Source of the DNA: Actinomycetota bacterium
GTDB taxonomy: Bacteria; Actinomycetota; Thermoleophilia; Solirubrobacterales; Solirubrobacteraceae
NCBI GenBank assembly: GCA_018268595.1
Contig: JAFDWH010000004.1
Coordinates: 62,001 to 126,000 of the forward strand
Direction of reading: 5' to 3'
DNA: 64,000 nt
Both the position numbers and the translations under genes were made by a program. Under the pieces are notes generated by a model. It was given only the letters and a program-made list of their open reading frames with translations. It ran no database searches and had not been told where the DNA came from. This document shows positions 1 through 59,531 of the stretch, one piece after another (position 1 is the first letter of the stretch; each line of letters starts with the position of its first letter).

Positions 1-1
1 C

Positions 2-745
2 GGCAGCGGCGGCTGGTCGACGATCGAGGCGATACTGAGAACGCCGTCGGACGGGCGCGCGTCGCGGCTCGTCGTGCAGCGCCTGCGCCGCGCGCTCGCG
101 CGCCGCACGCGCGAGACGTACGTCGGCGGCACGATCGCCGGCAGCGTCGACCTCGTCGACCGCATCGCTTCGCGCGCGCCGTGGGCGATCCTGACCGCGA
201 CCGCGCTCTGCTTCGTGCTGCTGGCGTGGGGGCTGCGCTCGCTCGTGATCCCGCTCAAGGCGGTGCTGACGACGCTGCTGTCGGTCGGCGCGACGCTCGG
301 CCTGCTGCTGCGGCTGTTCGACGGCGGCGCAGCGACGCCGCACCTGGAGTTCTTCGTGCCGCTGTCGCTGTTCGCGATCGTGTTCGGGCTGTCGGTCGAC
401 TACGAGGTGTTTTTGCTGAGCCGCATCCGCGAAGCGGCGGCGGCCGGGCACGACCACCGCGAGGCGGTGCGGCGGGGGCTCGTCGGCAGCGGCCGCTCGA
501 TCACGCTCGCCGGCCTGACGCTGACGACGGTGTTCCTCGCGTTCGCGAGCTCGCGGCTGCTGCCGCTGCAGCAGCTCGGCGTCGGGCTCGCGCTCGCGGT
601 CGCGATCGACGTGACGCTCGTGCGCTGCGTGCTGGTGCCGGCGACGGTCGTGCTGCTGCGGCAGTGGAACTGGTGGTGGCCGTTCGACCGCCGCCGGGCG
701 CTCAACGCGCCGGCGCGGGGGCCGGCGCCCGCCGAGCGCTCCTGA
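2..745 (+). CDS. MMPL/RND-family transporter, C-terminal part (5' end outside window)
   Basis: This is the C-terminal membrane domain of an MMPL-type (RND superfamily) exporter, which moves lipids or hydrophobic compounds across the cytoplasmic membrane using the proton gradient. The reading frame is open to the left window edge, so the GTG at 74 is internal and the protein is truncated by the window. Several hydrophobic helices are visible, with the typical motif GLSVDYEVFLLSRIREA, whose Asp-Tyr pair belongs to the proton-relay helix of this family, followed by a short charged loop and two more helices. The tail is Pro/Ala/Arg-rich. The last 44 bases overlap the 3' end of the convergent kinase-like gene. 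The substrate cannot be inferred. Confidence 0.85.
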   Translation, partial: GSGGWSTIEAILRTPSDGRASRLVVQRLRRALARRTRETYVGGTIAGSVDLVDRIASRAPWAILTATALCFVLLAWGLRSLVIPLKAVLTTLLSVGATLGLLLRLFDGGAATPHLEFFVPLSLFAIVFGLSVDYEVFLLSRIREAAAAGHDHREAVRRGLVGSGRSITLAGLTLTTVFLAFASSRLLPLQQLGVGLALAVAIDVTLVRCVLVPATVVLLRQWNWWWPFDRRRALNAPARGPAPAERS

Positions 746-1904
746 GCGCGTCGAGGCCCGGCAGCGGGTCGCCGGCGAGCAGGTGCAGCAGCACGGTCCC
801 GCCGGTCGAGACGTGCGTCACGCGGTCGGCCAGGCGCAGCGCGCGCAGCGGCATGCTCGTCGTGCCGCCGCCGACGATCGTCGGGCCGGACGCGTCCGCG
901 CAGGCGACGGCGAGCGCCTCCGCGCCGCGCCGCCCGGCCGGCGCGTGCTGGAAGCCGGGCGGCCCGTTCCACACGACCGTCCCGGCCGCGCGGATGCGCC
1001 CGCCGAAGCGTGCGCAGGCGCGCGGCCCGAGATCGATCGCGCGCATGTCCGGGCGCAGGTCGGCGAGCGCCACGACGCGCAGCCGGCCGGCGTCGTCGAC
1101 GAGCAGGTCCGGCGGCAGCAGCGTGCGCTCGTGCGCCAGCACCCGCCGCGCGCGCTCCCCGTCCGGCTCCGCGGCCGCGCGCGCCACCCCCTCGGCGATC
1201 TGCGCGCCGAGCAGCAGCGTCGCGCCCGCCGCCGCCAGCCGCTCCAGCAGCGGGAGCTTCTCGCGCGCCCGCGTCCCGCCGACGACGACCACGAGCGGGG
1301 CGGGCGGCGCGCGCAGCGGCGCGAGCAGCTCCAGCTCCGTCGCGACGAGCGCACCGGCGGTCGCCGGCCCGGCTTCGACCAGCTCCGCGATCGACGCGTG
1401 GGGACGGTGGAGACTGCCGAACGCGTCACTCACGACGAGGTCGGCGCCGGCACGCAGCTCGTCCGCGAGCGCGCGCCGCTCGGCGCCCCACGCGCTCGTC
1501 TCGCGCGCGTCGAAGCGGACGTTCTCCAGCAGCGCGACGCGGGCGCCGCGCGGCGGCCGCTCATCGCGGTCGCGCACGAGCGGGACGTCCGTCCCGAGCA
1601 GTCGCGCGAGCGCCGCGGCGACGGGCGCGAGCGACAGGCGCGGCTCGGCCCCCGCGGGCCGACCGAGGTGCGCGACCGCCAGCACACGATTCTCGCCCGC
1701 GAGCAGCCGCCGCAGCGTCGGCAGCGCAGCCCGCACCCGCGCGTCGTCGGCGATCGCGCGGCCGGCGAGCGGCACGTTGAGGTCGAGCCGCGCGAGCACC
1801 GCGGCCCCGGCCAGCTCGTCCAGCGCCAGCCCGGCGCCGCCAGCCCCCGCCACCTCGTCCAGCGCCAGCCGGGACCCCGCGACCACCGGTCCGTCCACGC
1901 TCAC
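702..1904 (-). CDS. Divergent phosphoglycerate-kinase-like protein
   Basis: The 400-residue protein follows phosphoglycerate kinase along its whole length. The 3-phosphoglycerate site looks intact: RLDLNVPL (39-46), HLGRP (79-83), LLENVRF (125-131) and SDAFGSLHRPHAS (159-171). The nucleotide side is altered. The usual GGAKVSDK reads GGTRAREK (209-216), so the phosphate-binding Lys is Arg. GGGDT/S reads GGGTTS (345-350), losing the conserved Asp. The Gly-rich STGGG is shortened to STGG (366-369). I infer a paralogue that may still bind a glycerate-phosphate-like acid but is unlikely to be the main glycolytic enzyme. The GTG start sits in a GTGA overlap with the upstream dehydrogenase gene, making it the last gene of a four-gene operon. 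Confidence 0.8.
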   Translation of the reverse strand: MSVDGPVVAGSRLALDEVAGAGGAGLALDELAGAAVLARLDLNVPLAGRAIADDARVRAALPTLRRLLAGENRVLAVAHLGRPAGAEPRLSLAPVAAALARLLGTDVPLVRDRDERPPRGARVALLENVRFDARETSAWGAERRALADELRAGADLVVSDAFGSLHRPHASIAELVEAGPATAGALVATELELLAPLRAPPAPLVVVVGGTRAREKLPLLERLAAAGATLLLGAQIAEGVARAAAEPDGERARRVLAHERTLLPPDLLVDDAGRLRVVALADLRPDMRAIDLGPRACARFGGRIRAAGTVVWNGPPGFQHAPAGRRGAEALAVACADASGPTIVGGGTTSMPLRALRLADRVTHVSTGGTVLLHLLAGDPLPGLDALRSARRAPAPAPAR

Positions 1905-2845
1905 GCCCCGACCACGGCGACCCGCTCCAGCGTCTCCAGCGCCGCGCGCGCGGCGGCGCCGTAGTAGCGCGCCGCGGCCTCGGCGGTGCGGCCGGCCGCG
2001 TGCGGCGTCAGCAGCACGCGCGGATGCGCGCGCAGCCGCGGGTCGACGCGCGGCTCGTCCGGGAAGACGTCGAGCGCGGCGCCGGCGAGCCGCTCGTCGA
2101 GCGCGCGCAGCAGCGCCTCGTGGTCGAGCAGATGCGCTCGCGCGGTGTTGACGAGCCAGGCGCCGGGCCGCATCGCGTCCAGCTCCCGCGCGCCGAGCAG
2201 GAACGCTCCCGGCGCGGCGCGCACATGCAGCGAGACGGCGTCGGCGGCGCCCAGCAGCTCCCCCAGCGCGACCCGCTCGCCCGGCACGCCGGCCGCCGCC
2301 TCGCCGGAGCGCCGCGTGTAGACGATGCGCGTGCCGAACGGCTCCAGCAGCCGCGCGAGCCGCGCGCCGGTGCGTCCGAGCCCGACGATCCCGACCGTCA
2401 GCGCGCCCAGCTCGCGTGCCGTGTCGTCGAAGGCGCTCGGCACGCGCCAGTCGCCCGCGCGCACGTGCGCGTCCGCCGCCACGAGCCGCTTCGTCAGCGC
2501 AAGCAGCAGCGCGAGCGCGTGCTCGGCCGTCGCGGCGGCCGACAGGCCTGGCGGCGGGCCGCTGACCGCGACGCCGCGCGCCCGCAGCGCCGCCGCCTCG
2601 CCGCGCGCGGCGCTCGCCCCGCCGACCCGGTACACGCGCGCCAGCCGCTCCGCGCGCGCGAGGAAGCGCTCCGGCAGCGGCGGACCGCCGACGATCGCGA
2701 CGGTCGCAGCGCCGGCGAGGTCGAGCGCGGCGTCGGCGTCGGGTCGGAACGCGACGTCCGCCACCCCGCGCAGCGCCTCGCGCAGGATCCGCTGACCGGG
2801 CGCGCTGGTCGGCCCGATCGCCAGCACGAGCGGGCGCGCGCTCAT
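1901..2845 (-). CDS. D-2-hydroxyacid dehydrogenase (phosphoglycerate dehydrogenase-like)
   Basis: This 314-residue NAD(P)-dependent 2-hydroxyacid dehydrogenase would interconvert a 2-oxoacid and a D-2-hydroxyacid in the cytoplasm. The Rossmann motif is GLGRTG at 155-160. The catalytic triad of the family is present: Arg236 in NTARAHLLD, Glu264 in FPDEP and His282 in LTPHAAG. It lacks the C-terminal ACT/ASB regulatory domains of long SerA enzymes. The gene lies 19 bases after the S-adenosylhomocysteine-hydrolase-like gene and overlaps the kinase-like gene by four bases. With a glycerate-kinase-like neighbour, a three-carbon hydroxyacid substrate is plausible, but this is inference from context. 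Confidence 0.85.
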   Translation of the reverse strand: MSARPLVLAIGPTSAPGQRILREALRGVADVAFRPDADAALDLAGAATVAIVGGPPLPERFLARAERLARVYRVGGASAARGEAAALRARGVAVSGPPPGLSAAATAEHALALLLALTKRLVAADAHVRAGDWRVPSAFDDTARELGALTVGIVGLGRTGARLARLLEPFGTRIVYTRRSGEAAAGVPGERVALGELLGAADAVSLHVRAAPGAFLLGARELDAMRPGAWLVNTARAHLLDHEALLRALDERLAGAALDVFPDEPRVDPRLRAHPRVLLTPHAAGRTAEAAARYYGAAARAALETLERVAVVGA

Positions 2846-2864
2846 CGCCCCGCGCCCCGCGCCC

Positions 2865-4073
2865 TCATCGCCCCGCGCGGGCGCTCGCCAGGCCCAGCGT
2901 CTGCAGCTTGATCTGCGCGACCCGCTCGGCGTCGGCGGCGTCCACCTCCGCGACCCCCGCGCCGTAGCGGCCCGGACGCTCCCACAGCGTCTGCAGGCAG
3001 AGCACGTGGAGCGCGAGCGAGAGGTCCATCACGTCGCTCGCGTTGCCCTCGCCGCAGTGATGGTTGATCTGCCGCCCGCCGGCCAGCAGCACGACGCGAC
3101 GGCTGCCGAGCACGTACTCGGCGACGCCGCCGCCGTGGTCGCGCGCGCTCGACGCGCGCGCCGCGAGCGCCTCGACGCGTATCTCGCCGTCGCGGCGGCC
3201 GGCGTTGCCGAGCACGCAGCCGTCCTTCAACAGGTCCATGTGCTGCTCGCGGATCACGTCCGCTTCGCCGGTCGCGGTGAGGACGAAGTCGGCGCTCGGC
3301 AGCACGGTCTCGAGCTGCGCGAGCTGCATGCCGTCGTAGACGGCGATCAGGCCGGCCTGCGCGGAGCGCTCGACGACGATCACGCGCGCGTGCGCGGCGC
3401 GCAGATAGGCGGCGATCCCGCGGCCGTTGGCGCCGTAGCCGACCACGACCGCGACCGCCCCGGCGAGCTGACGGCGCGAGGCGGTCATGAGCGCGGCGAC
3501 GGTCGACTGCCCGGTCCCGTGCGCCGTCTCGATCTGCTCCTTGATCGGGCACGAGGCGAGCCCGACGAGCGGGAACGGCGCCGGCTCCGCTTCGGCGAGC
3601 GCGCGCCGCACGAGCGTCTCGGCGTTGCGCGAGTGCAGCGTGCCGCCGGCAACCTGCCCGCGCTGCGCGAGTGCCGCCACCGACAGGCGGCCGTTGTCGA
3701 GCAGCAGGTGCGGCTCGAAGCCGGCGAGCACCTCCTCTGGCGACGCGTCGCGCGGGTAGTACGCGACCGCGCCGAGCGCGCGGCGCAGGCCGTCGCGCTC
3801 GTGCAGCGGCTCGGGGTCGTCCTCGACCAGCAGCCTCGCGCCGGCGCGCTTGAGCACGTTGAGCAGGTAGGCGCGCTCCTTCGTCAGGCGGCCGGCCGCG
3901 GCGACGCGCGCACCGTCGAACGGCCGCGTCCCCTGGAGCTGGCGCTCCAGCACGGCGAGGACCGGCATGCGCCGCCAGCAGGCGCGCACGCGCGCGTAGC
4001 TGTCCGCCGCCGGCGACGCGTCCGTGTCCGGCGCCGCCGCGGGCGCCGCGCTCGCTACGCCTGCGACTTCCAC
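2865..4073 (-). CDS. S-adenosylhomocysteine hydrolase-like NAD-binding protein, divergent
   Basis: The 402-residue protein has the overall layout of adenosylhomocysteinase with a degraded N-terminal substrate domain. It retains an MP motif (36-37), an NAD fold with GYGANGRG (212-219), an equivalent of the catalytic Lys (Lys178 in PIKEQIETAHGTGQS, where the family has NDSVTKSKFDN), and the late motifs TATGEADVI, GNAGRRDGEI and GEGNASDVM. The catalytic Asp after the Lys is Glu182, and the STQDHAAA and EETTTG substrate segments are not recognisable. A redox role on a nucleoside-like or other substrate is possible, but true S-adenosylhomocysteine hydrolysis is doubtful. The GTG start at 4073 overlaps the end of the radical SAM gene by 19 bases. 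A start further in would remove the conserved MP region. Confidence 0.75.
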   Translation of the reverse strand: MEVAGVASAAPAAAPDTDASPAADSYARVRACWRRMPVLAVLERQLQGTRPFDGARVAAAGRLTKERAYLLNVLKRAGARLLVEDDPEPLHERDGLRRALGAVAYYPRDASPEEVLAGFEPHLLLDNGRLSVAALAQRGQVAGGTLHSRNAETLVRRALAEAEPAPFPLVGLASCPIKEQIETAHGTGQSTVAALMTASRRQLAGAVAVVVGYGANGRGIAAYLRAAHARVIVVERSAQAGLIAVYDGMQLAQLETVLPSADFVLTATGEADVIREQHMDLLKDGCVLGNAGRRDGEIRVEALAARASSARDHGGGVAEYVLGSRRVVLLAGGRQINHHCGEGNASDVMDLSLALHVLCLQTLWERPGRYGAGVAEVDAADAERVAQIKLQTLGLASARAGR

Positions 4074-5113
4074 AGCCGGCAGATCGAGACGAGGTCGTCG
4101 GGCGTCTCGGGCTTCCCGTTGTGGGCGAGCACCGTCTCGGCCGGGCAGCCGCTGAGCCACGGCTGGTCGCCGGCCTGGAAGGTCGCCTGCGTGAACAGCT
4201 CGAACTCGTTCTGCTCGCGGTTGAGCCGCAGGCCCTGCGGCGTCATGACGGCGAAGTGCAGCGGCTCGTCGAACAGCAGCGAGCAGACGTAGGCGCGGCC
4301 GTCGGGGAAGATCGAGAGGCGGTCGAGCGAGCAGCCGACGCAGCCGCGGTAGCCCTCGTCGACGTAGCGCTCCAGCTTCGCGGGCGTCGCGTACGTCGGC
4401 GGGTACCAGATCGAGGTGCGGTAATCGTCCTTGATCTGCTCGAGCCGCTCGTAGAAGTCGATCCACTCCTGCGGGCTGAGCGACCAGTCGGCGGCGTTGG
4501 CGATGCCGCGCCCCTCCTCGGAGAAGACGTGGAAGTTCGTCATCGCGACGCCGAGCTCGTCGGCGAGCGCGAGCATCGCCTCGGCGTCGTGGAGGTTGCG
4601 CTGCGAGATCGTGCAGATGATGCGGACGGGGTAGCCGGCCGCGACGGTTCTCGCGATGCACGGGACGGTCCTCGCGTAGGTGCCCGCGCCGCGCACGGCG
4701 TCGTGCGTCTCGGCGGTGGCGCCGTCGAGGCTGAAGGAGATGTAGTGCAGCTTCTCCGGCGTGATCTTGTCGATCGTGCGCTCGAGCAGGCCGTTGGAGT
4801 TGATCATCACCTGCCGGTAGCCGACCGCGAGCGCATGGTCGACCATGCGCGGCAGGTCGGGGTGCAGCGTCGGCTCGCCGCCGAGGAAGGTGATGTACTC
4901 GCCGCCGAGCGTGCGGCAGCGGTCGATGATCCCGGTCGCCTCCTCGAAGTCGAGCATCAGGCCGCGCTCGAGCCGGTCGCCCATGTAGCAGTGGCCGCAC
5001 CGAAGCTGGCAGCGCTCCGTGATGTAGAGATAGATGTTGTGGAAGCGCTTGTAGTGGATGCGCGATCTGTCGCGCGAACGCGGCTCCGGAGAGCTCGCGA
5101 GCAGCTCGGGCAT
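4055..5113 (-). CDS. Radical SAM enzyme with SPASM/twitch-like C-terminus
   Basis: The 352-residue protein carries the canonical radical SAM cluster motif CQLRCGHC (Cys35, Cys39, Cys42), a GGEPTLHP motif (78-85) typical of the SAM-binding strand, and SFSLDGA (127-132). The C-terminus has Cys258, Cys261, Cys277, Cys323 and Cys345 around an IFPDGRAYVC core, which resembles a SPASM/twitch domain holding an auxiliary iron-sulfur cluster. Such enzymes carry out radical chemistry on peptides, sugars or other small molecules. No short precursor-peptide gene was noticed nearby, so a small-molecule substrate is more likely. The ATG at 5113 follows GGAGG with a four-base gap. It is the first gene of the operon that continues through the three oxidoreductase- and kinase-like genes. 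Confidence 0.85.
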   Translation of the reverse strand: MPELLASSPEPRSRDRSRIHYKRFHNIYLYITERCQLRCGHCYMGDRLERGLMLDFEEATGIIDRCRTLGGEYITFLGGEPTLHPDLPRMVDHALAVGYRQVMINSNGLLERTIDKITPEKLHYISFSLDGATAETHDAVRGAGTYARTVPCIARTVAAGYPVRIICTISQRNLHDAEAMLALADELGVAMTNFHVFSEEGRGIANAADWSLSPQEWIDFYERLEQIKDDYRTSIWYPPTYATPAKLERYVDEGYRGCVGCSLDRLSIFPDGRAYVCSLLFDEPLHFAVMTPQGLRLNREQNEFELFTQATFQAGDQPWLSGCPAETVLAHNGKPETPDDLVSICRLWKSQA

Positions 5114-5422: not shown

Positions 5423-5794
5423 ATGGCTACGAACAATCAGCTGGTGCGCCTCGGGCGCAGAAGAAGACGCCGCATCACGAAGCGCGCGGCGTTGAGAGGC
5501 GCTCCGATGAAGCGCGGCGTGTGCACGCGTGTCTACACGACGACGCCTCGTAAGCCGAACTCCGCGCTCCGCAAGGTCGCGCGTATCCGCTTGACGAACG
5601 GGAACGAGGTCACGGCCGCGATCCCGGGCGAGGGCCACAACCTGCAGGAGCACTCGGTCGTGCTCGTGCGCGGCGCCTCGCTGAAGGACCTCGGTGGCAT
5701 CAGCTACAAGGTCGTGCGCGGCACGCTCGACGCCGCAGGCGTCAGCGACCGCAAGAAGGCCCGCTCGAAGTACGGCGCGAAGCGCCCGAGCTGA
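5423..5794 (+). CDS. rpsL: Ribosomal protein S12 (stand-alone, variant residues)
   Basis: This 123-residue S12 is a core protein of the 30S decoding centre. The diagnostic segments [46 protein letters not shown] and [14 protein letters not shown] are present. In E. coli numbering, which aligns without gaps, residue 43 is Arg (TTTPRKPN instead of TTTPKKPN) and residue 91 is Gly (KDLGG instead of KDLPG). Both are positions where changes give streptomycin resistance or dependence in other bacteria. Lys88 and the modified Asp89 are retained. The N-terminal arm is unusually Arg-rich ([12 protein letters not shown]). The usual downstream rpsG, fusA and tuf genes are absent, and the gene ends in its own terminator, so it may be a second, divergent copy. 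It faces away from the radical SAM operon. Confidence 0.93.
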
Positions 5795-5850
5795 GCGACC
5801 GCCTCCGGTAGGGGGCGGCAGCGCCCGCTCCACCTCGTCGCGTTCTCACC

Positions 5851-5883
5851 ACGGCCCGCTCGCTCGAGCGGGCCGTTGCATTT
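5851..5883 (+). terminator. Intrinsic terminator after rpsL
   Basis: An inverted repeat with 11-12 bp GC-rich arms (ACGGCCCGCTCG paired with its complement ending at 5876) and a minimal loop is followed by TGCATTT. It lies 57 bases after the rpsL stop and marks rpsL as monocistronic. Confidence 0.75.
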
Positions 5884-5942
5884 GGCAGGGGCGCACCATG
5901 CTGGTCCCCCGAGGTCGAGGCGGCCCGCACCAAAGCCGGCGG

Positions 5943-6758
5943 CTATGCCGTTGCCACCTCGGCGCTCGTCCCGCGGTGGCGTGCGTAGATGTCCTCGACC
6001 CACTTGAACCCGGGGCGGTCCTTGAGCGAGTCGCGGAACCGTCGTGACTGGGGGGTCCGCTCGGCCGGGTGGAGCTTGATGTAGGGGAACTCGGGTGGCA
6101 TGACGATGGGCGCGAGGAGCGAGGCGGCCGTCAGGTCTGCGACGGTGAACGACTCGCCGACGAGATAGCCGCTCGGGCCGACCTCTGCCTCAATCTCGTC
6201 GAACGCCGCACGCACCTTGTCGCGCGACTGCTCAACGGTCTCCGGCCGGATTCGGTAGCGCAGCTTCACGGCTTGGCCGAGCAGCGGACTGAGCGCCTTG
6301 ATCAGACCGATTCGCGGGTGCTCGGCGCCGTAGAGCATCGCGAGGAACTTCTCCGGCTCCGCCAAGTTGTCGTTGAACAGCACCCGCCGCACGTCATGAC
6401 CGCACTGCTCGTCGAAGTACTCCTCGAGGCCGAGCGCGCGTCTGCGCGCCTCCGGATCGGCCGGGTAGAGCGGCGGCTCCGGCCACCGCCGCTCGACCTC
6501 CTCGAGGATCTTCGTCGAATCGCCGAACGCACGCCCGTTCATCTCCAGCACCGGCAGCGTGCGGCCCGCGCGCTGGCGCCGCGCCGTGAACTCCTGCAGC
6601 GCCGGCGTCACCGCGCGGCGCACGTGCGCGACGCCCTTGTAGTCAAGCGCCCACCGGGCCTTCTCGTTGTAGTGCGAGATCTCGAGGTGCCAGAGGACCG
6701 GCGTGTCGACGGCGGCACAGCCCGGAGACCCTTGGAGATGCCCATCTTGTGCCGGCAT
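5943..6758 (-). CDS. Glutathione S-transferase family protein
   Basis: The 271-residue protein has a thioredoxin-like N-terminal domain beginning TPVLWHLEISHYNEKARW, with the TLPVLEMNG and DSTKILEEVE segments that normally form the cis-Pro and glutathione-gamma-glutamyl site, then an all-helical C-terminal domain with the VADLTAAS capping-box region. It probably conjugates or reduces electrophiles in the cytoplasm. Actinobacteria usually lack glutathione, so another thiol or a non-catalytic role is possible. The ATG at 6758 is preceded by AGGAGG eleven bases upstream. The open frame extends further upstream, but that part shows no conserved sequence and was excluded. Confidence 0.8.
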   Translation of the reverse strand: MPAQDGHLQGSPGCAAVDTPVLWHLEISHYNEKARWALDYKGVAHVRRAVTPALQEFTARRQRAGRTLPVLEMNGRAFGDSTKILEEVERRWPEPPLYPADPEARRRALGLEEYFDEQCGHDVRRVLFNDNLAEPEKFLAMLYGAEHPRIGLIKALSPLLGQAVKLRYRIRPETVEQSRDKVRAAFDEIEAEVGPSGYLVGESFTVADLTAASLLAPIVMPPEFPYIKLHPAERTPQSRRFRDSLKDRPGFKWVEDIYARHRGTSAEVATA

Positions 6759-6871
6759 CGCTCTACTGACCTCCTGGCGCAGGATCTGGGGAGCGGGTTC
6801 GGCTTGCAGCTGCCGCCAGTCCCAATCGTACTCATCGAGCTCAAAAACGGAGCTATGGCTCGACATCGCGA

Positions 6872-6889
6872 CCCATGGGCGCGGGTGGT
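6872..6889. repeat. 18-bp fragment matching the tRNA-Val 3' boundary
   Basis: CCCATGGGCGCGGGTGGT is identical to the sequence spanning the 3' end of the tRNA-Val gene at 29946-29963, including three bases outside the tRNA. It lies 132 bases left of the IS element. A chance match is unlikely but not excluded at this GC content. Confidence 0.45.
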
Positions 6890-7021
6890 CTGATTCGGCG
6901 GACATCCCTGGCGCAGCGGCGTTCTCGGAAGGGAGGTTCCCGCCGGGTTCCCGGTTTGGCGTAGCGGCGCTCTGTCGTCGTCCCCGAAGCGCTCGGCCGG
7001 CGTGACGAAATCGCAAAGGGG

Positions 7022-7038
7022 TGAGCCATCCCGGGTTT
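7022..7038 (+). repeat. Left terminal inverted repeat of IS3-family element
   Basis: TGAGCCATCCCGGGTTT pairs with the right end (8315-8331) at 15 of 17 positions. Confidence 0.75.
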
Positions 7039-7081
7039 GACGGAGGTCTTGTTGCCAGGATGTCGTGCCTGGTGAAAGGAG

Positions 7082-7397
7082 ATGCTCTGTTCGATGGCTG
7101 CACCGAGGAAGTATCCGGAAGGAGTTGCGTGAGCGCGCGATCCGGCTCGTGTTCGAGTCGGGCCGGCCGGTCAAGCACGTCGCTGATGATCTCGGCGTGC
7201 ATCCGGAGGCGTTGCGCAGCTGGGTGCGTCAGGCCGAGGCGGACGCTGGCAAGCGTCCGGAGCGGCTCACGAGCGATGAGCGCGAACGGCTCAAGGCGCT
7301 CGAGCGTGAGAACCGGGAGCTGCGCAAGGCGAACGAGATCTTGAAGGCTGCCAGCGTGTTTTTCGCGAAGGAGCTCGACGCTCCCCGACCGAAGTGA
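7082..7397 (+). pseudogene. IS3-family transposase OrfA, frameshifted near the N-terminus
   Basis: The small helix-turn-helix protein of an IS3-type element binds the terminal repeats. The expected start encodes MAAPRKYPE (ATG at 7094, or the in-frame ATG at 7082 right after GAAAGGAG). One extra base near 7119-7122 then moves the reading frame, and the conserved continuation LRERAIRLVFESGRPVKH, a helix-turn-helix, and a leucine-zipper-like RENRELRKANEIL segment are encoded in the next frame to 7397. Removing one base restores the standard protein. Translation from the GTG at 7065 in the downstream frame is possible but would replace the normal N-terminus. Confidence 0.75.
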
Positions 7398-8301
7398 GCG
7401 CGTTCATCGACGCGTATCGGGGCCGCTTCGGGGTCGAGCTCGTCTGCCGGACCGTGGGCGTGTCGGCGTCCGCCTACTACCAGCGCGCCACCGGCGAGCG
7501 CTCGGCCCGTGTCCTCGAGGACGAACGGCTGCTCGCGGTGATCCGTCAGCTGCATGCCGCCAACTACCACGCCTACGGATCGCGGCGAATGTGGAAGGCG
7601 CTGCTGCGCGCGGGAGAGCCGGTCGGCCGCGGCCGGGTCGAGCGGCTGATGCGTACCCACGGCATCCAGGGCGCCAAGCGCCGCGGCAAGCCATGGCGGA
7701 CAACGACGCCCGATCCGATGGCACGCCGCAGCCCGGATCTTGTGCGTCGTCAGTTCGTTGCGAGCCATCCGAACGAGCTGTGGTGCTCGGACTTCACCTA
7801 CCTGCGCTGTTGGGAGGGGCTGGTGTTCTTCGCGTTCGTGATCGACGTCTACAGCCGCCGCATCGTCGGCTGGCAATTCGCGCCGCACATGCGCACGACG
7901 CTCGTCCTCGACGCGCTGAAGATGGCGCTCGCCCAACGCGGCCCGGCCAGCGAGGTCCGGCTCGTGCATCACTCAGATGCCGGCAGCCAATACACCAGCG
8001 GCGAGTTCACTCAGGTGCTTGCCGACCACGAGGTGCTCGCCTCGATTGGAACCGTCGGCGACGCCTACGACAACGCACTGGCCGAGAGCTTCGTCGACAC
8101 GTTCAAGACCGAGCTGATCCGCGACCCGTCTGGCGGACCCGCACCCAGCTCGAACTCGCGATCGTCGAATACGTCGGCTGGTTCAACCAAGCGCGCATGC
8201 ACGAGAGCCTCGGCGATCGCTCCCCCGAAGAGTTCGAGTCCCTCGCAGCGACCCAATATGGTCCGCTTCGCAACACCAACAACACCGACCGAGACAGATA
8301 A
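7394..8301 (+). pseudogene. IS3-family transposase OrfB (DDE integrase), frameshifted near the C-terminus
   Basis: This is an rve-type DDE transposase. The catalytic residues are in ELWCSDFTYL, HHSDAGSQYTS and DNALAESF, all before the lesion. One base is missing near 8124-8128, so the conserved C-terminal helix (VEYVGWFNQARMHESLG and SPEEFE) lies in another frame that stops at 8301. Without the correction the protein runs on to 8347 with an unrelated Ser/Pro-rich tail. The GTG start overlaps orfA by four bases, the usual arrangement for programmed -1 frameshifting in this family. Confidence 0.8.
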
Positions 8302-8314
8302 AACGCTCTCCGCG

Positions 8315-8331
8315 AAACCCGGGGCGGCTCA
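8315..8331 (-). repeat. Right terminal inverted repeat of IS3-family element
   Basis: Read on the minus strand it is TGAGCCGCCCCGGGTTT, matching the left end at 15 of 17 bases. Confidence 0.75.
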
Positions 8332-8343
8332 ATGCCCTTGCCG

Positions 8344-8375
8344 TTGATGCATTCGCGCTGCATTCTTGCTACAGT
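8344..8375 (+). promoter_or_regulatory. Promoter/operator region of the RES-Xre module
   Basis: A TACAGT -10 element (8370-8375) ends six bases before the antitoxin ATG, predicting a leaderless transcript. TTGATG (8344-8349) is a possible -35 element but is 20 bases away. GCATTC is directly repeated at 8349-8354 and 8360-8365 and could be an autoregulatory site for the antitoxin. Confidence 0.45.
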
Positions 8376-8381
8376 CCCCTC

Positions 8382-8738
8382 ATGGCTTCAGCCACGCTCG
8401 CCACGCGCCCTCTCATCCGCGAGGCGGTCTACCTGCACGAGATCGCACAGCTCAGCGATGCGGACATCGCACGCGCAACGGGCGTGGCGCGCAGCACCGC
8501 GCGCGCGTGGCTTGCGCACACGCGCTCGCCGACCGGAGATCGCGGAGAGCGGCTGATCGAGCTCTCGGCGATGGTCGAGCGGCTCGCGCGGCTGATGGAG
8601 CCCTCCTACATCGCCGTCTGGTTGCGCAAGCCCGTGCCGGCGTTGGGCGATGAGAAGCCGATCGATCTGATCGCGCGCGGTGAGTACATGCGCGTCGCGA
8701 GCCTGATTTCGGCGCTCGAAGAGGCTCCCTTCACGTAG
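8382..8738 (+). CDS. Antitoxin of RES-Xre module (MbcA/ParS/Xre family)
   Basis: The 118-residue protein has an N-terminal helix-turn-helix (IAQLSDADIARATGVARSTARAWL) and a C-terminal toxin-binding domain with the family signature WLRKPVPALGDEKPIDL and ARGEYMRVASLI. It should neutralise the downstream RES toxin and repress its own promoter. The ATG is directly downstream of a TACAGT -10 element. The toxin gene follows after 15 bases in the standard antitoxin-first order. The left neighbour is the end of the IS element, 50 bases away. Confidence 0.9.
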   Translation: MASATLATRPLIREAVYLHEIAQLSDADIARATGVARSTARAWLAHTRSPTGDRGERLIELSAMVERLARLMEPSYIAVWLRKPVPALGDEKPIDLIARGEYMRVASLISALEEAPFT

Positions 8739-8753
8739 CCCGCCCTCGGTCCG

Positions 8754-9281
8754 GTGGCGCTCAAGGTCGATCGGATCTCGGTCGCCGGCTCGTGGTGGCG
8801 GCAGATCCCGCACGGCTCCGACCCGCTCTGGCTTGCCACCCCGCCCTCGAGCGGACGCTGGCAACGCGGCGAGCACCTTGCCGCGCTCTACTTCGCCGAC
8901 GAGGCCGAGACCGCCTGGGCCGAGTGGTACCGGATGCTCGCCGAGGTCGGCATGCCACCTACGCACGGCATGCCACGCGACCTCTGGCGCTGGACGATCG
9001 CCGTCGACGACGTCGCCGACCTAACCACCCCAGCCAAGCTCGCCGCGCTCGACCTCCAGCCGCCACGTCCGAGCCAGCACACGTGGACTCCGTTCCAAGA
9101 AGCCGGCGAACAACTTGCCCGCGACGGCTGCCGCGGCATCCTCTACGCGAGCGCCGCCCGACCCGAGCACCGCGCGCTCTGCCTCTTCCGCGACAACATC
9201 GCGATCCCCGGCGCCGAACCCGTCCGACCGCCCGGGACGCACCGCGACCCGCCGGCGCCGCCGAGAGGCATGCGCACCTGA
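8754..9281 (+). CDS. RES-domain toxin (NAD-degrading)
   Basis: The 175-residue protein fits the RES family, whose members deplete NAD+ by phosphorolysis or hydrolysis when freed from the Xre antitoxin. Visible motifs are GRW (Arg35), Tyr46 in ALYFAD, acidic residues in AETAWAEWY (Glu52, Glu57) and GILYASAAR with Ser133 near the C-terminus, in the order seen in characterised toxins. The start is a GTG 15 bases after the antitoxin stop without a clear ribosome-binding site, consistent with low or coupled translation. The C-terminus ends in a Pro/Arg-rich tail. No frameshift is visible, so the module may be active. Confidence 0.87.
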   Translation: MALKVDRISVAGSWWRQIPHGSDPLWLATPPSSGRWQRGEHLAALYFADEAETAWAEWYRMLAEVGMPPTHGMPRDLWRWTIAVDDVADLTTPAKLAALDLQPPRPSQHTWTPFQEAGEQLARDGCRGILYASAARPEHRALCLFRDNIAIPGAEPVRPPGTHRDPPAPPRGMRT

Positions 9282-9402
9282 GCCGCGCCACCACCGTCGA
9301 CGACATCCCGAAGCCGCTTAGCTTGGGAATCCGCGCCGGCCAAGCTCCGGCGCGGCCGCACCCGAGCGCTGTCATCGTGTGCGCGGAACAGAGGAGAACA
9401 GC

Positions 9403-10101
9403 GTGGGATCGAGCACGTGCGGCCGGGTCGCATTGTCGATTGAGTCCAAGCGCCGCCTTTGGAGCGAGTCAGGCGGCTACTGCCAGAACCCATCGTGCGC
9501 GCGTGATCTGTTCGCCGATGGCTCAGATGTCGACTTCGCGGAGATGGCCCACATCATTCCGGCTAGCAAAGGTGGTCCGCGTGACATCCCCCACGACCAG
9601 CTTTCAGCGCATGATCGTGCGCACCACGAGAACGTCGTCCTGCTGTGCGCCAACTGCCACACGATCGTCGACAAGGATCCTGGGACGTTTCCCGCCGAGC
9701 TGATGCGGGACTGGAAGCAGGACCGCAAGGCCCTGCTCGAGCAAACGCTCGGCACCCCGAAGTACGCCAATCGGCAGCGAGCACGCGAGCACATCACCCC
9801 GTTGTTGGAGCAAAACGAGGTGATCCACCGTCGCTACGCCCCGAGACCGGGAGTCTTCTCCAACGCGACGGCCGAGCGCTGGCACCGCCACATGGTCGCG
9901 ACCGTCATTCCCAACAACCGTGCCATCCTGCGGGTCCTTGAACGGAATCAGGATCTGCTCACCAGCGAAGAACGCGAAACTCTCGCCCTGTTCTCCTTGC
10001 ACGTCCGTGAGCTGGCATATCGCCATTTCCTGAACGACTGGACCGCCGGAGCCACCCGTTTTCCGGAGCGTCTGACTTCGATCCTGGGCCCGGAGCAATG
10101 A
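9403..10101 (+). CDS. HNH endonuclease with unassigned helical C-terminal domain
   Basis: The 232-residue protein has an N-terminal zinc-bound HNH nuclease: CQNPSC (Cys27, Cys32), AHIIPASKGGPR with His50, ENVVLLCANCH with Asn77, Cys82, Cys85 and His86. The C-terminal half from about residue 120 is helical and ends with IPNNRAILRVLERNQDLL and a FSLH...FLNDW segment. I know this arrangement from HNH proteins of unassigned function but cannot name a characterised relative. The GTG at 9403 is chosen because GAGGAG lies six bases upstream. The frame is open to a GTG at 9379. The stop overlaps the start of the next gene (ATGA), so the two are translationally coupled. A role in DNA defence is inferred from domain and location. 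Confidence 0.82.
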   Translation: MGSSTCGRVALSIESKRRLWSESGGYCQNPSCARDLFADGSDVDFAEMAHIIPASKGGPRDIPHDQLSAHDRAHHENVVLLCANCHTIVDKDPGTFPAELMRDWKQDRKALLEQTLGTPKYANRQRAREHITPLLEQNEVIHRRYAPRPGVFSNATAERWHRHMVATVIPNNRAILRVLERNQDLLTSEERETLALFSLHVRELAYRHFLNDWTAGATRFPERLTSILGPEQ

Positions 10102-10619
10102 GCAACCCTCGTCCCTGGGTCATGAGGAAGTTGGAAGAAGAGGCTCGACATGACGGCGAGTTGAGCGGCCTCCGGTTGGAGCACGTCGGCACAAACGGTC
10201 TGCGGATCGTCCGAAGGGCGCGGCCGGATGCGCTGGTCTACTGCGCTAGCGTAGAGCACGGCGAGACCTTCGGCCCTCAAGATCTCGAGCATGTACTGGG
10301 TGTGCTCTCGGAGGCCCAGTTCGTCGTCGTCGTCCCAACGCGAATCGACCACGAGGTCTTCGTGCACGCCGAGGAACTCGGCGTGTGCGTGGACGGCTTC
10401 GGAGAGCTCGTCGCGGCGTTCGGTTCAGCGCTCCGACAAGACGATCCGCACGATCTCGACGTGCTGTTGCTCTATGACAGCCGCGCCTCCGAAGTCGCGG
10501 TCCGAGGTGCAGAACGGTGGTCGGAGACGAGACCCCCGGTGCACATCATCGCGATGACCCGCGCCGAGGAGCGGGAATACCGATTCATACAGGGCACGAG
10601 CGCCGTCAGATTGCTCTAG
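10098..10619 (+). CDS. Unknown protein coupled to the HNH nuclease
   Basis: I do not recognise this 173-residue protein. It is soluble, acidic and looks alpha/beta: an N-terminal charged helix, then strands DALVYCASVE and QFVVVVPTRI, followed by YxxAEELG-like VFVHAEELGVCVDGF, DVLLLYDSR and VHIIAMTR. The strand-helix pattern with scattered Glu/Asp could be a degenerate restriction-endonuclease fold or a sensor domain, but no complete PD-(D/E)xK motif is clear. Its start codon overlaps the HNH stop codon, so it is probably an obligate partner (regulator, specificity or immunity protein). It is the last gene before the tRNA-Val remnant. Confidence 0.75.
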   Translation: MSNPRPWVMRKLEEEARHDGELSGLRLEHVGTNGLRIVRRARPDALVYCASVEHGETFGPQDLEHVLGVLSEAQFVVVVPTRIDHEVFVHAEELGVCVDGFGELVAAFGSALRQDDPHDLDVLLLYDSRASEVAVRGAERWSETRPPVHIIAMTRAEEREYRFIQGTSAVRLL

Positions 10620-10759
10620 TGCGATCCTCGGGACCTGCGTTGCAGGGAGAGCCCCGGTAGACATCGAGCGCAGACGTTGCGAGCCTTTGCGAGCGGCCAT
10701 GTCGGGGCGCGTCGCGAGCCAGTCGACGAACCAACGCGCCGCCATCGGTTCGAAACACT

Positions 10760-10804
10760 ATGGGCGCGGGTGGTTTCGAAGCACCGACCTCTCGCGTGTG
10801 AAGC
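10760..10804 (-). repeat. Truncated tRNA-Val 3' half (att-like)
   Basis: These 45 bases match 29948-29992 at 44 positions, with one C-to-G change in the T-loop region. They cover the acceptor 3' strand, T-arm, variable loop and anticodon-arm 3' side up to the anticodon loop, where identity stops abruptly. That is the usual extent of an integrase crossover core in a tRNA gene. No functional tRNA can form here. Confidence 0.75.
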
Positions 10805-10909
10805 AGCGGATTTCTGAGAGCTCAGACGCCGAACCGCCGACCAGAGCGGCAGATCCGCGCAAACGCGCAGCCTCCCAATTCGGCTCAAGAAGGCTGATTC
10901 CGGGGACGT

Positions 10910-10930
10910 TTGGCCCAACGATTGACCCAA
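10910..10930. repeat. 21-bp imperfect repeat near the tRNA remnant
   Basis: The sequence TTGGCCCAACG-ATTGACCCAA matches 29888-29908 at 18 of 21 positions and contains an internal direct repeat of the TTGRCCCAACG type. It lies 105 bases inside the putative left att site and could be an integrase arm-type site or a remnant of an integrase gene end. Confidence 0.4.
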
Positions 10931-11055
10931 CGGCACGGAAGCGACCCCACGGTCCGGCACCGACTACCCCGTTGGTCTGAAGATGCCTGGCAAACCAGTG
11001 CGCGACCCGCCGATCGTCGCGGGCTTCTACTGACGCGGCTCCGCGCCACCGCGGG

Positions 11056-11084
11056 ATGACGGCGCTCGGGCAGCTCCATACGGT
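11056..11084 (+). promoter_or_regulatory. Promoter of the PEP synthase operon
   Basis: ATGACG (11056-11061), a 17-base spacer and TACGGT (11079-11084) form a sigma70-like promoter. Its -10 element ends eight bases before the ATG at 11093, indicating a leaderless mRNA. Confidence 0.5.
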
Positions 11085-11092
11085 CCTTGCTC

Positions 11093-13489
11093 ATGCACAC
11101 CCCAATCGCCTCCGGCCCCGACAGCGCACGGTCCGCACACGCGGCGATCCGGCCATTCGACGATCTCTCGCGAGACGACGTCGACTGGGCCGGCGGCAAG
11201 GGCGCGAACCTCGGCGAGCTGACGCGTGCGGGCCTGCCGGTCCCGCCGGGCTTCGTCGTCGGCGCCCCTGCATACGCCGCGATGTGCGAGGCGAGCGACC
11301 TGCGCGCCCACCTCGTCCGTCTGCTGGAGGGGCTCGACGTCGACGACACGACGGCGCTCGAGGCGAGCGCCGAGCAGGCGCGGTGCCTCGTGCTGGGGGT
11401 GGCCGTGCCGCCCGACCTCGATCGGGCGATCCGCGACGCGTACGCGGCGCTGTGCGCCGGCACGCAGGACGCCGCGGTCGCCGTGCGCTCCTCGGCGACC
11501 GCCGAGGACACGGCGTCGGCGTCGTTCGCGGGGATGAACGAGAGCTTCCTCAACGTGCGCGGCGCGGACGCCGTCGTGAGAGCGGTCCACGAGTGCTGGG
11601 CCTCCCTGTTCGGCGCGCGCACCGTCTTCTACCGCGCCAAGCGCGGGCTCGGCCAGGCCGACATGGACATCGCGGTCGTCGTGCAGCGGCAGATCGCGTC
11701 GCTGCGCGCCGGCGTGATGTTCACGCTCGACCCCGCCACCGGCGCGCACGACCGGCTCGTGATCGAGGGCTCGCTCGGGCTCGGCGAGGCGGTCGTCTCC
11801 GGCGCCGTCTCGCCCGACCGCTACGTCGTCGACAAGCACGACGGCGCGATCCTCGCGCGCGAGGTGCGCCGCAAGCGGATCGCGATCGAGCCGCTGGGCG
11901 GCGGCGGCACGCGCCAGCGCGAGCTCCAGGGCGACGAGGCTCTGACGCCCGTGCTGAGCGACGACGAGGTGCGCCAGCTCGCCGAGCTGGGGACGCGGAT
12001 CGAGCGCCACTACGGCGCGCCGCAGGACACGGAGTGGGCGTTCGACGCCGACGGCGCCGTGTGGATGCTGCAGTCGCGTCCGGTCACGACGGCCGGCGGC
12101 GCGGCAGCCGGGGCTGAGGCTTCGAGCGACGGTCACCCGCGCGGCGAGCTGCTCGCGAGCGGCCTCGGCGCCGCGCCCGGCGCCGCGAGCGGGCCGGTGC
12201 GCGTGATCGAATCGCTCGCCGGCGCCGATCGCCTGCGCGAGCGCGACGTGCTCGTCGCGCCGATGACCGCCCCCGACTGGGTCCCGCTGCTGCGCCGCGC
12301 CGCCGCGCTCGTCACCAACACCGGCGGCATGACCTGTCACGCCGCGATCGTCTCGCGCGAGCTGGGAATTCCCTGCGTCGTCGGCACGGGCGACGCGACC
12401 GACACGCTGCGCGACGGCGAGACCGTCACGGTCGACGGCAGCCGCGGGCAGGTGCGCGCGGGGGGTGACGTCGCTCGCAGCGAGCGAAACCCGGCACCGG
12501 CCGCGCCCACGCCGGCCGGGGCGCCCGCCGCCACGGGCGCCGCGGCCGCGGAGGCGCCGGTTACCGGCACGCAGCTGCTCGTCAACCTGTCCGAGCCCTC
12601 GCAGGCCGAGCGCGCCGCGGCGCTGCCCGTCGACGGCGTCGGCCTGCTGCGCGCCGAGCTGATGCTGCTGGAGGCGCTCGGCGGCGACCACCCGCGCGCG
12701 CTGCTGGAGGAGGGCCGCGGCGAGCAGGTCATCGCGCGGATGGCGGACGGCCTGACGACGTTCGCCTCAGCGTTCGCGCCCCGGCCGGTCACCTACCGCA
12801 CGATCGACTTCCGCACGAACGAGTTCCGCGGCCTGCGCGGCGGCGAGCGCTTCGAGCCGGTCGAGGCGAACCCGATGATCGGCTACCGCGGCGCGCTGCG
12901 CTACCCGCGCGAGCCGGAGGTCTTTCGGCTGGAGCTCGACGCGATCGCGCGCGTGTGGGACGCCGGCCACGCGAACCTGCACGTGATGCTGCCGTTCGTG
13001 CGCAGCGCACGCGAGCTGGCGCGCTGCCTGACGCTCGTCGAGGCGAGCGGCCTGCTCGCCCGGCCCGGCTTCGAGCTGTGGATCATGGCCGAGGTGCCGT
13101 CCGTGCTGTTCGCGCTGCCCGCGTACGCGCAGATGGGCGTCGCCGGCATCTCGATCGGCTCGAACGACCTCACGCAGCTCCTGCTCGGCGCCGACCGCGA
13201 CTCCGACCTCGTCGCCGAGGCGTTCGACGAGCGCGACCCGGCCGTGCGCGCCTACCTGCGCGAGCTGATCCCGGCCGCGAGAGCGCTCGGCCTGCGCACG
13301 TCGATCTGCGGCCAGGCGCCCTCCGTGCATCCCGAGTACGCCGAGCTGCTCGTGCGCGCAGGGATCGACGCGATCTCGGTCAGCGCCGACGCGGTCGCGC
13401 GCACACGCCGACTCGTGGCCGCCGCCGAGCGGCGCCTGCTGCTCGACGCGGCGCGCACGCAACAGCCCACCGACTCGGGAGGCATCTGA
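11093..13489 (+). CDS. ppsA: Phosphoenolpyruvate synthase (pyruvate, water dikinase)
   Basis: The 798-residue protein converts pyruvate, ATP and water to PEP, AMP and phosphate, the entry step of gluconeogenesis from C2/C3 compounds. The N-terminal ATP-binding domain has [20 protein letters not shown] and [18 protein letters not shown]. The swivelling phosphohistidine domain has [21 protein letters not shown] with His416. The C-terminal PEP/pyruvate barrel has [33 protein letters not shown] and the catalytic Cys near 739 in SICGQAPS. A Pro/Ala-rich linker of about 40 residues separates the swivel and barrel. ATG 11093 was chosen over the TTG six bases upstream. It heads an operon with acetyl-CoA synthetase and a 2-oxoacid dehydrogenase. 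Confidence 0.93.
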
Positions 13490-13686
13490 TGGCGACTCGC
13501 GTCGTGTTCGCGAACGGCCGGGAGCTGCTCGTCGCAGAGGACGAGGACGACGTGATCGGCGCGGTGCGCCGCGAGCATCCGAACCCGGTCTCGCTCGAGA
13601 GCGCGATCGGCGGCCGGCTGCACGTCAACTGGGACCACGTCGCCTATGTCGAGGAGGCGCCGCCGCAGAGCGGCGAGGCGGGATGA
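13489..13686 (+). CDS. Small conserved-looking hypothetical protein (65 aa)
   Basis: The 65-residue acidic protein begins [18 protein letters not shown] and has a [22 protein letters not shown] segment, a beta-rich pattern that ends in a strand typical of small regulatory or binding domains. No family is recognised. Its ATG overlaps the PEP synthase stop (TGATG) and its stop overlaps the next start (ATGA), so it is translated within the operon and unlikely to be spurious. Confidence 0.7.
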
Positions 13687-15506
13687 CCGCGCTGCGCGGC
13701 GCTCCCGTCCCGGCGCGCATCGCCAAGGCGCTGCGCATCGGCGACCCGCCGCCCAACCTGCGCGACTACGAGCAGGCGCGCCGGGCGTTCTCGTGGGAGC
13801 GGGCGCGCGCGCAGCTCGACGGGCTGCCGCACGGCCGCGGGCTCAACATCGCGCACGAGGCGGTCGACCGCCACGCCGCCGGCGCACGTGCGGACACGGT
13901 CGCGCTGCGCTGGCTCGCGCGCACCGGCGCCCGTCGCGAGATCTCCTACCGCGAGCTGGGCGAGCTGACGAGCCGCTTCGCGGACGTCCTCGCCGGCCTC
14001 GGCGTCGAGCCCGGCGAGCGGGTCGCGTCGCTGCTCGGGCGGGTGCCGGAGCTGCACGTCGCGGCGCTGGGGACGCTCAAGCGCGGCGCCGTCTTCAGCC
14101 CCCTGTTCTCCGCTTTCGGCCCGGAGCCGGTGCGCCAGCGGCTCGCGCTCGGCGACGCGCGCGTGCTCGTGACGACGCCGCGCCTGTACGCGCGCAAGGT
14201 CGCGCCGGTGCGCGAGCAGCTGCCAGCGCTGCGGCACGTGCTGCTCGTGGGCTATCCCGACGAGATCGCGGCGGCCGGGGAGGTCGCCGGCGGCATCGAC
14301 CTGCGAGCGGCGCTCGCCGCCGCCGACGCCGCGTGGGAGATCCCCCCGACCGATCCCGGGCAGCTTGCGCTGCTGCACTTCACGAGCGGCACGACCGGCA
14401 TGCCGAAGGGCGCGATGCACGTCCACGAGGCGGTGCTCGCGCACTGGGCGACCGGGTCGCTCGCGCTCGACCTGCACCCCGGCGACGTCTTCTGGTGCAC
14501 GGCCGATCCCGGCTGGGTGACCGGCACCTCCTACGGGATCGTCGCGCCGCTCGTGCACGGCGTCACCGTCGTCGTGGACGAGGGCGAGCTGGACGTCGAC
14601 CGCTGGTACCGGATCCTGCAGGACGAGCGCGTGAACGTCTGGTACACCGCGCCGACCGCGGTGCGGATGCTGATGCGCGCCGGCGCGGAGGTCGCGCGCG
14701 AGTACGACCTCTCGGCGCTGCGCTTCGCCGCGAGCGTCGGCGAGCCGCTGGCACCGGAGGCGGTCGCGTGGGGCGCCGAGGCGCTCGGGCAGCCGCTGCA
14801 CGACAACTGGTGGCAGACGGAGACGGGCGGGATCATGATCGCCAACTACCGCGCGATGGACGTCAAGCCGGGCTCGATGGGCCGGCCGCTGCCGGGGATC
14901 GAGGCGGCGATCCTGCGCCGTGACGACGAAGGCCGCGTGCTGCTCGACGCCGGCGGGCATGCGGTCGAGGCGGCCGCCGGCGAGCAGGGCGAGCTGGCGC
15001 TGCGGCCCGGCTGGCCGTCGATGCTGCGCGGCTACCTCGGCGAGCCGGAGCGCTACGCGCGCTGCTTCGCCGGCGGCTGGTACTGCTCCGGCGACCTCGC
15101 GCGACGCGACGCCGACGGCTACTACTGGTTCGTCGGCCGCGGCGACGACGTGATCAAGTCGGCCGGGCACCTGATCGGCCCGTTCGAGGTCGAGAGCGCG
15201 CTGCTGGAGCACCCGGCGGTCGCCGAGTGCGGCGTGATCGGCGTGCTTGACGAGGTCGCCGGACAGGTCGTCAAGGCGTTCGTCGTGCCGGCCCCGCCGG
15301 CCGAGGGAGACCCGGCGCTCGCGCGCGAGCTGCTCGGCTGGGCGCGCAGACGGCTCGGCCCGGCGGTCGCCCCGCGCGAGATCGCGTTCGTCGCGTCGAT
15401 CCCCAAGAACCGCTCGGGCAAGATCGTGCGGCGCCTGCTGCGCGCGCGCGAGTTGGGGCTGCCGGAGGGCGACGTCTCGACGCTGGAGCCGGAGCCGCCG
15501 TCATGA
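13683..15506 (+). CDS. acsA: Acetyl-CoA synthetase, AcsA-type (AMP-forming)
   Basis: The 607-residue adenylate-forming ligase activates acetate, or a similar short acid, to acyl-CoA via acyl-AMP. Adenylation motifs are complete: [20 protein letters not shown] (P-loop), [40 protein letters not shown] and [11 protein letters not shown] with the catalytic C-terminal Lys. The [14 protein letters not shown] and [14 protein letters not shown] segments match the Bacillus AcsA type rather than the longer enteric Acs. It overlaps its neighbours by four bases on both sides. Together with PEP synthase and the dehydrogenase it suggests a node linking acetate, acetyl-CoA, pyruvate and PEP. Confidence 0.92.
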
Positions 15507-16492
15507 GCGCGGTGGCCGTCGAGCGCGAGCACGCGCTGCACCTGCTGCGCGAGATGACGCGCATCCGGCGCTTCGAGGAGGCCTGCGTCCAGCTCTACAG
15601 CGCGACGAAGATCCGCGGCTTCCTGCACCTCTACATCGGCGAGGAGGCTGTCGGCGTCGGCGCGATGCAGGCGCTGGGGCCCGAGGACGCGGTCGTCGCG
15701 ACCTACCGCGAGCACGGCCACGCGCTCGTGCGGGGCGTGCCGGCGCGGGCGCTGATGGCGGAGATGCTTGGCCGCGTGGAGGGCTGCTGTCGCGGCCGCG
15801 GCGGCTCGATGCACATCTTCGACGCCGCGCGGCGCTTCTACGGCGGCAACGCGATCGTCGGCGGCGGGCTGCCGCTCGCCGTCGGGCTCGCGCTTGCCGA
15901 CAAGCTGGCCGGACGGCACGAGCGCGTGACGGCCTGCTTCTTCGGCGAGGGCGCGATGGCCGAGGGCGAGTTCCACGAGTCGATCAACCTCGCGGCGCTG
16001 TGGCAGCTGCCGGTGCTGTTCCTGTGCGAGAACAACCGCTACGCGATGGGCACCGCGCTGGAGCGCTCCGAGTCCGAGACCGACCTGTCGCTGAAGGCGG
16101 CGAGCTACGAGGTCCCGGCGTGGCCGGTCGACGGGATGGACGTGCTCGCCGTCGAGCAGGCCGTGCGGCGCGCCGCGGCGATGGTGCGCGGCGGCGAGGG
16201 GCCGGTCTTCCTGGAGCTGCGCACGTACCGCTTCCGCGCGCACTCGATGTACGACCCCGACCTCTACCGCAGCAAGGAGGAGATCGCGCGCTGGCGCGAG
16301 CGCGACCCGCTGACGACCTTCCCGGAGCTGCTGCGCTCGCAGGAGCTGCTGGACGACGCCGCGCTGAGCGGCATCGAGGACGAGGTCGCGGCGGAGGTGG
16401 CGGACGCGATCGCGTTCGCCGACGCCGGCACGCCGGAGCCGGTTGAGGAGCTGGAGTGGTTTGTCACGATGGACGAGGTGCCGGCGGCATGA
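15503..16492 (+). CDS. 2-oxoacid (pyruvate/acetoin) dehydrogenase E1 alpha subunit
   Basis: The 329-residue protein is the thiamine-diphosphate-binding alpha subunit of a heterotetrameric E1. The TPP motif runs [19 protein letters not shown] to LFLCENN. The substrate-site region [24 protein letters not shown] and the regulatory-loop sequence [16 protein letters not shown] are typical. With E1 beta it decarboxylates a 2-oxoacid and reductively acylates the lipoyl group of E2. Pyruvate or acetoin is likeliest given the neighbours, but the substrate cannot be fixed from sequence. It overlaps acsA and the beta-subunit gene by ATGA junctions. Confidence 0.9.
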
Positions 16493-56257: not shown

Positions 56258-56267
56258 GGTGGACGCA

Positions 56268-56828: not shown

Positions 56829-56832
56829 CGCG

Positions 56833-57399: not shown

Positions 57400-57420
57400 G
57401 CGGGCCTCCGTTTCGGACAT

Positions 57421-57471: not shown

Positions 57472-57507
57472 GTTATGTCGGACGGCCGGTCCGTTGTCGA
57501 ACGCCCG

Positions 57508-59527
<2,020 letters not shown>

Positions 59528-59531
<4 letters not shown>

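Follow-up and report, generated by a model that had tools for sequence, protein, structure and literature searches.

A four-gene operon in the analysed stretch of DNA (the window; 64,000 nucleotides) is very probably a cassette of specialised metabolism. Four coupled and intact minus-strand genes at window positions 702–5113 encode a radical SAM protein, a protein related to S-adenosylhomocysteine hydrolase (SAHH-like), a D-2-hydroxyacid dehydrogenase and a PGK-like protein. In its fuller form, our reading is that recruited paralogues make up a secondary-metabolite cassette, that the cassette was acquired horizontally and that it possibly comes with self-resistance through target replacement of ribosomal protein S12; we hold this combination to be evenly balanced between right and wrong, and the S12 link is its weakest step. 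The cassette reading is well supported. The link to S12 is weaker, and we infer it from position and residues because the cassette-bearing relatives have an ordinary S12.

The first gene of the operon encodes the radical SAM protein (4055–5113; 352 aa; ATG start; Pfam Radical_SAM, E 8e-23). It is followed on the minus strand by the SAHH-like gene (2865–4073; AdoHcyase_NAD, E 2e-29), the gene of the D-2-hydroxyacid dehydrogenase family protein (1901–2845; Pfam 2-Hacid_dh_C, E 4e-42) and the PGK-like gene (702–1904; Pfam PGK, E 4e-72, ~244 bits). The SAHH-like protein is read from a GTG start at 4073, with its core from 3968. This start creates a 19-base overlap with the radical SAM gene and retains a segment that is conserved in relatives (ARVRACWRRMPV / ARVKLAWRQMPV). 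A 19-base gap separates the dehydrogenase and SAHH-like genes, and the PGK-like and dehydrogenase genes overlap by 4 bases. The coordinates of this coupling are exactly those of the preliminary description, which had reported overlaps of 19 and 4 bases and one gap of 19. The G+C content at codon position 3 is 95–98% in all four ORFs, and the family assignments from Pfam and NCBIfam are concordant for the four proteins. Promoter, terminator and Rfam scans returned nothing useful.

The radical SAM protein contains the CxxxCxxC motif of the SAM cluster (C35, C39 and C42). Its C-terminus is SPASM/twitch-like: it retains C258, C277, C323 and C345, has an additional C261 and lacks a cysteine-rich stretch found in more distant relatives. 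BlsE, the cytosylglucuronate decarboxylase of blasticidin S, is the closest solved relative by both sequence and fold and the best fold match of the predicted model. However, the identity in the structural match is ~22%, and the protein scores 51.6 bits against a BlsE family cut-off of 400. No radical SAM reaction is claimed because the BlsE-like fold rests on a low-confidence model.

The SAHH-like protein shares the fold, the NAD domain and Lys186 with S-adenosylhomocysteine hydrolase but differs in its catalytic and substrate residues. Residue numbering follows human SAHH and human PGK, and site residues were assigned according to what is established for both enzymes. In the residue alignment, the NAD fold persists, and of the catalytic and ribose-contacting residues (D131, E156, K186, D190 and N191) only Lys186 is retained. 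D131 is replaced with Asn, E156-T157 with His-Ser, D190-N191 with Glu-Thr and H353 with Asn. The C-terminal tail of the NAD site is missing, and the protein scores below the curated adenosylhomocysteinase cut-offs. The SAHH-like proteins of relatives carry the same changes at D131 (Asn), E156-T157 (HS) and D190-N191 (ET or ES) and lack the same tail; the H353-to-Asn change is found in the window protein and most of the others. The predicted model displays a complete SAHH fold (pLDDT 89.6) with SAHH structures as its best fold matches, and the substrate domain is, as modelled, altered rather than absent. The preliminary description had stated that the NAD fold and one catalytic Lys are kept and that substrate-domain motifs are lost; the alignment agrees, with changed substrate-site residues in a fold that remains full. 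In the phylogenetic tree, the window protein and the SAHH-like proteins of relatives form one clade against the true SAHHs (support 100/100).

In the PGK-like protein, which was aligned to 16 housekeeping PGKs, the residues of the 3-phosphoglycerate site are intact (DLN, DDxR, HLGRP, ENVRF and HRxHAS). The ATP site is substituted: Lys215 is changed to Arg (GGAK to GGTR), the glycine loop reads GAQ, Glu343 is changed to His and Asp374 to Thr. The second ATP-site Lys, K219, is kept. The ATP site is thereby lost. The earlier claim of a kept 3-phosphoglycerate site and a lost nucleotide-site Lys (K215R) and Asp (D374T) was borne out, with K219 still present. In the tree the protein falls outside every housekeeping PGK sampled, with a very long branch that leaves its exact position unsure. 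The 396 genomes of the phylum yielded no close relative of it. The D-2-hydroxyacid dehydrogenase has an intact Arg-Glu-His triad and an NAD(P)-binding domain.

The host genome (3.57 Mb in 31 contigs; 98.9% complete, so that it may be incomplete) carries separate housekeeping copies of both enzymes. A full PGK is encoded at C31:24616 and scores 488 bits vs ~243 for the cluster copy. Two different full adenosylhomocysteinase genes lie in tandem at C31:107663–110396 (locus L067, 7663–10396), and their products (483 and 396 aa) both exceed the curated cut-off. A PF00670 search of the genome, the sole check made for a second SAHH-like gene, gave three matches. The full PGK and the two full SAHHs elsewhere rule out the window proteins as the housekeeping enzymes. 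The preliminary description had taken them for recruited paralogues, an idea that the absence of other PGK and SAHH genes would have overturned; such genes exist, and in the phylogeny the paralogues branch apart from the housekeeping enzymes.

The radical SAM protein has orthologues with 78–81% identity over the alignment in Micromonospora rosaria (L006), Streptomyces caatingaensis (L007) and S. varsoviensis (L008). The loci of these three actinobacteria share the radical SAM gene, two SAHH-like genes (a and b) and the D-2-hydroxyacid dehydrogenase gene; the dehydrogenase orthologues are 42–44% identical and occupy the same position. Also common to the three loci are a NodU-type carbamoyltransferase, a canonical SAHH and a P450. 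Both Streptomyces loci contain a NUDIX domain or gene, and a histidine or HAD phosphatase lies near the unit in the loci of relatives. The PGK-like gene was not found near any of the relatives' loci, and the one PGK of each relative genome is full-scoring. As an addition to the unit, the PGK-like gene has been seen in the present genome alone, and the four genes were rejected as a single conserved set. A search for the set as first described thus recovered three genes that recur together in relatives, with the PGK-like gene absent there. The conserved unit consists of the radical SAM gene, SAHH-like genes (usually two) and the D-2-hydroxyacid dehydrogenase gene.

None of 60 genomes from the same family yielded the unit, so the cassette was probably acquired. 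One other genome among the 396 of the phylum passed E 1e-40, with 46% identity and a different neighbour, and the family of S. caatingaensis contains two more matches (38–46%) with other neighbours. Viral contigs contained no relative. Plasmid records contained relatives of 34–44% identity only, with other neighbours where these were readable. In the neighbourhood read, no carbamoyltransferase or P450 lies beside the window cassette, and the window has a single SAHH-like gene; the pathway may differ at its end or be incomplete.

More distant relatives of the radical SAM protein lie in other settings. A Thiotrichaceae MAG (L009) encodes one with 37% identity, and this gammaproteobacterium has a distant version of the locus (5764–14794) with the radical SAM gene, two SAHH-like genes, a SAICAR-synthetase-like gene and a second radical SAM gene. 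A NUDIX gene, a kinase-like protein with no Pfam match and an adenosine-deaminase-like gene on the opposite strand accompany them. Relatives of 31–36% identity in Kitasatospora, Nocardia and another genome (L042 12785–16615, L043 7708–12147 and L066 5354–12080) form tandem pairs accompanied by a glutamate-tRNA ligase and a nucleotidyltransferase-like gene; this locus is a different one and is apparently conserved. Those of 43–45% identity, in Nocardia farcinica and two other genomes (L044 8647–10451, L041 14106–15697 and L065 1766–2419 and 9072–10151), adjoin or lie near a ~217-aa protein with no Pfam match.

An altered rpsL gene encoding ribosomal protein S12 (5423–5794, plus strand) is divergent from the radical SAM gene and lies ~310 bases from the radical SAM start. 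Its position makes it a putative member of the system. No second S12 gene was found in the genome, and the presence of two S12 copies was accordingly rejected. In two genomes of the same genus, rpsL encodes 131 aa with a family-specific insertion and lies in the order ald-rpsL-rpsG-fusA-tuf. In the genome under study, contig C30 passes straight from a PucR gene to rpsG, and ald is gone. The native rpsL of the str operon is present as an in-frame seven-codon scar (ATGCCTACGACCAGCCAGCCGTAATG) that reads MPTTSQP* (C30:30257–30280; L072 8258–8281), and the stop of the scar overlaps the rpsG start. The assignment of C30 and of C26, the contig of the window, to one genome is based on completeness, on composition and on the complementary pattern of an rpsL lost from one contig and gained on the other.

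The family-specific insertion is absent from the window S12. Over its C-terminal 90 residues, the protein matches the host-family type (74–77 of 90 identical, vs 66–69 for others), and an import from Streptomyces was rejected on this ground. The protein is changed at 12 of 72 positions that are invariant in 21 other S12s. Among these changes are K43R and substitutions at six of the 12 positions in 84–95 that are invariant (hypergeometric P = 0.003), and none of the 21 other S12s is changed at K43 or at the invariant positions in 84–95. K43 and the 84–95 loop are where streptomycin resistance maps. The K42/43R change confers streptomycin resistance (PMC6763770; PMC6557517). Resistant alleles are recessive to sensitive rpsL (PMC6557517), which would account for the need to lose the native gene. 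An altered S12 is a demonstrated route of self-resistance in the dityromycin producer, which is protected by changed residues in its own S12; the window S12 is likewise changed. The dityromycin changes are V32T and R55K (PMC6763770), whereas the window S12 is changed at K43 and in 85–94, its native gene is deleted and its host is a putative producer. An altered target copy that adjoins biosynthetic genes and replaces the sensitive copy, the arrangement by which target-based self-resistance is recognised, is present in this genome. The cassette-bearing Streptomyces and Micromonospora have an ordinary S12, and the altered S12 was rejected as a conserved part of the pathway.

In the proposed mechanism, the radical SAM enzyme would carry out the committing step on a precursor of the nucleoside, sugar or acid type. 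The SAHH-like protein would use its bound NAD and Lys to oxidise or epimerise a ribose-like secondary alcohol in a substrate other than adenosylhomocysteine. The dehydrogenase would set a 2-hydroxy or 2-keto acid centre, and the PGK-like protein may bind an acid that resembles 3-phosphoglycerate but would not use ATP to phosphorylate it. The proposal of a three-carbon phosphate or a nucleoside as the substrate is a guess. Less firmly, the product would act at S12 or the decoding site, and the host may protect itself by having replaced its own S12 with the altered one encoded next to the cassette. It is rather doubtful that this enzyme set, with the ATP-blind PGK-like protein, makes a new family of products that target the ribosome at S12 or the decoding site, in a lineage outside the usual producers and with self-resistance by complete replacement of the native rpsL.

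The S12 step is also where the chief rival departs from this mechanism. The cassette may be a secondary-metabolite module with no relation to the altered rpsL, which would have arisen under selection by an external streptomycin-type drug or by drift after duplication and come to lie there by chance. The ordinary S12 of the cassette-bearing Streptomyces and Micromonospora, the fact that exposure to streptomycin usually results in K43R-type changes and the mobility of the site, indicated by an IS3-type transposase at window 7065–8347, all favour such a coincidence. However, the altered gene is away from its native locus, in an accessory stretch and ~310 bases from the start of the radical SAM gene, and rather than a single point mutation it has numerous changes that cluster in the drug-site loop. 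A chance position is thus somewhat unlikely, though it deserves serious weight.

Two further alternatives concern the cassette itself. A role in SAM or nucleoside turnover, in which the radical SAM and SAHH-like proteins handle 5'-deoxyadenosine or SAH by-products, or in which the radical SAM enzyme transfers the adenosyl group of SAM to an acceptor for processing by the SAHH-like protein and the dehydrogenase, would accord with the adenosyl compounds normally bound by the SAHH fold and with the canonical SAHH gene that adjoins the unit in relatives. It is improbable, since the residues that hold ribose and adenine in SAHH are changed, the distribution is patchy and the neighbours are tailoring enzymes rather than salvage enzymes. 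The operon could also be the decaying remnant of a larger imported cluster that has lost a second SAHH-like gene, the carbamoyltransferase and the P450 and no longer makes its product. The several further genes shared by relatives and the long branches of the SAHH-like and PGK-like proteins point in this direction. Nevertheless, the four intact frames with a strong codon-position bias, the radical SAM protein that is still ~80% identical to distant orthologues and the intact dehydrogenase triad make decay very unlikely.

The herbicidin and aureonuclemycin clusters of Streptomyces (her, hcd and anm) are the nearest published architecture known to us and were compared by gene table only (PMC6794829, Table 1). 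They contain an SAHH homologue, a radical SAM gene and oxidoreductases that adjoin one another, as listed in that table. The table gives the SAHH homologue as 558 aa and the radical SAM protein as 435 aa, compared with ~400 and 352 aa in the window, and names no 2-hydroxyacid dehydrogenase, PGK-like protein or carbamoyltransferase (PMC6794829). Thionucleoside clusters of the 4'-thiothymidine/albomycin type, which combine a radical SAM gene with an AbmG-like kinase and a triphosphatase and for which no SAHH-like gene is mentioned, were rejected. The preliminary description had recognised no described pathway, and literature searches of open-licence papers, in which a description in a subscription journal could be missed, likewise gave no published match.

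The operon represents a previously undescribed biosynthetic unit with a searchable signature, a radical SAM gene with one or two truncated SAHH-like genes and a D-2-hydroxyacid dehydrogenase gene, and in it the SAHH and PGK folds have been put to different uses. Should the S12 link prove true, the target of the product is predicted, and the genome displays the fixation of target-replacement resistance, with the native gene removed and the altered copy as the sole one because the sensitive S12 is dominant.

The operon is flanked on its 3' side by the end of an MMPL-family exporter gene (window 1–745, plus strand; whole gene C26:60646–62745), which overlaps the end of the PGK-like gene by 44 bases. 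The gene is a possible member of an accessory island. At a threshold of E 1e-150, the other 60 genomes of the family gave no match to the MMPL protein. The arrangement suggests that the island extends from ~55.8 kb of C26 to the IS3-type transposase. To the left of the window, C26 (~55800–62745; L092 17801–18913 and L070 889–6746) contains genes for an NAD_binding_4 reductase, a carrier protein, an ABC-2 exporter, an acyl-AMP ligase and the MMPL protein. This group resembles biosynthesis and export genes, and its members possibly belong to the pathway. Farther to the right, a plus-strand run at window 11093–19030 consists of PEP-synthase-like, AMP-ligase, pyruvate-dehydrogenase-like E1 alpha, E1 beta, E2 and carrier-protein genes, named from their translations only, and looks like a separate acyl-supply group.
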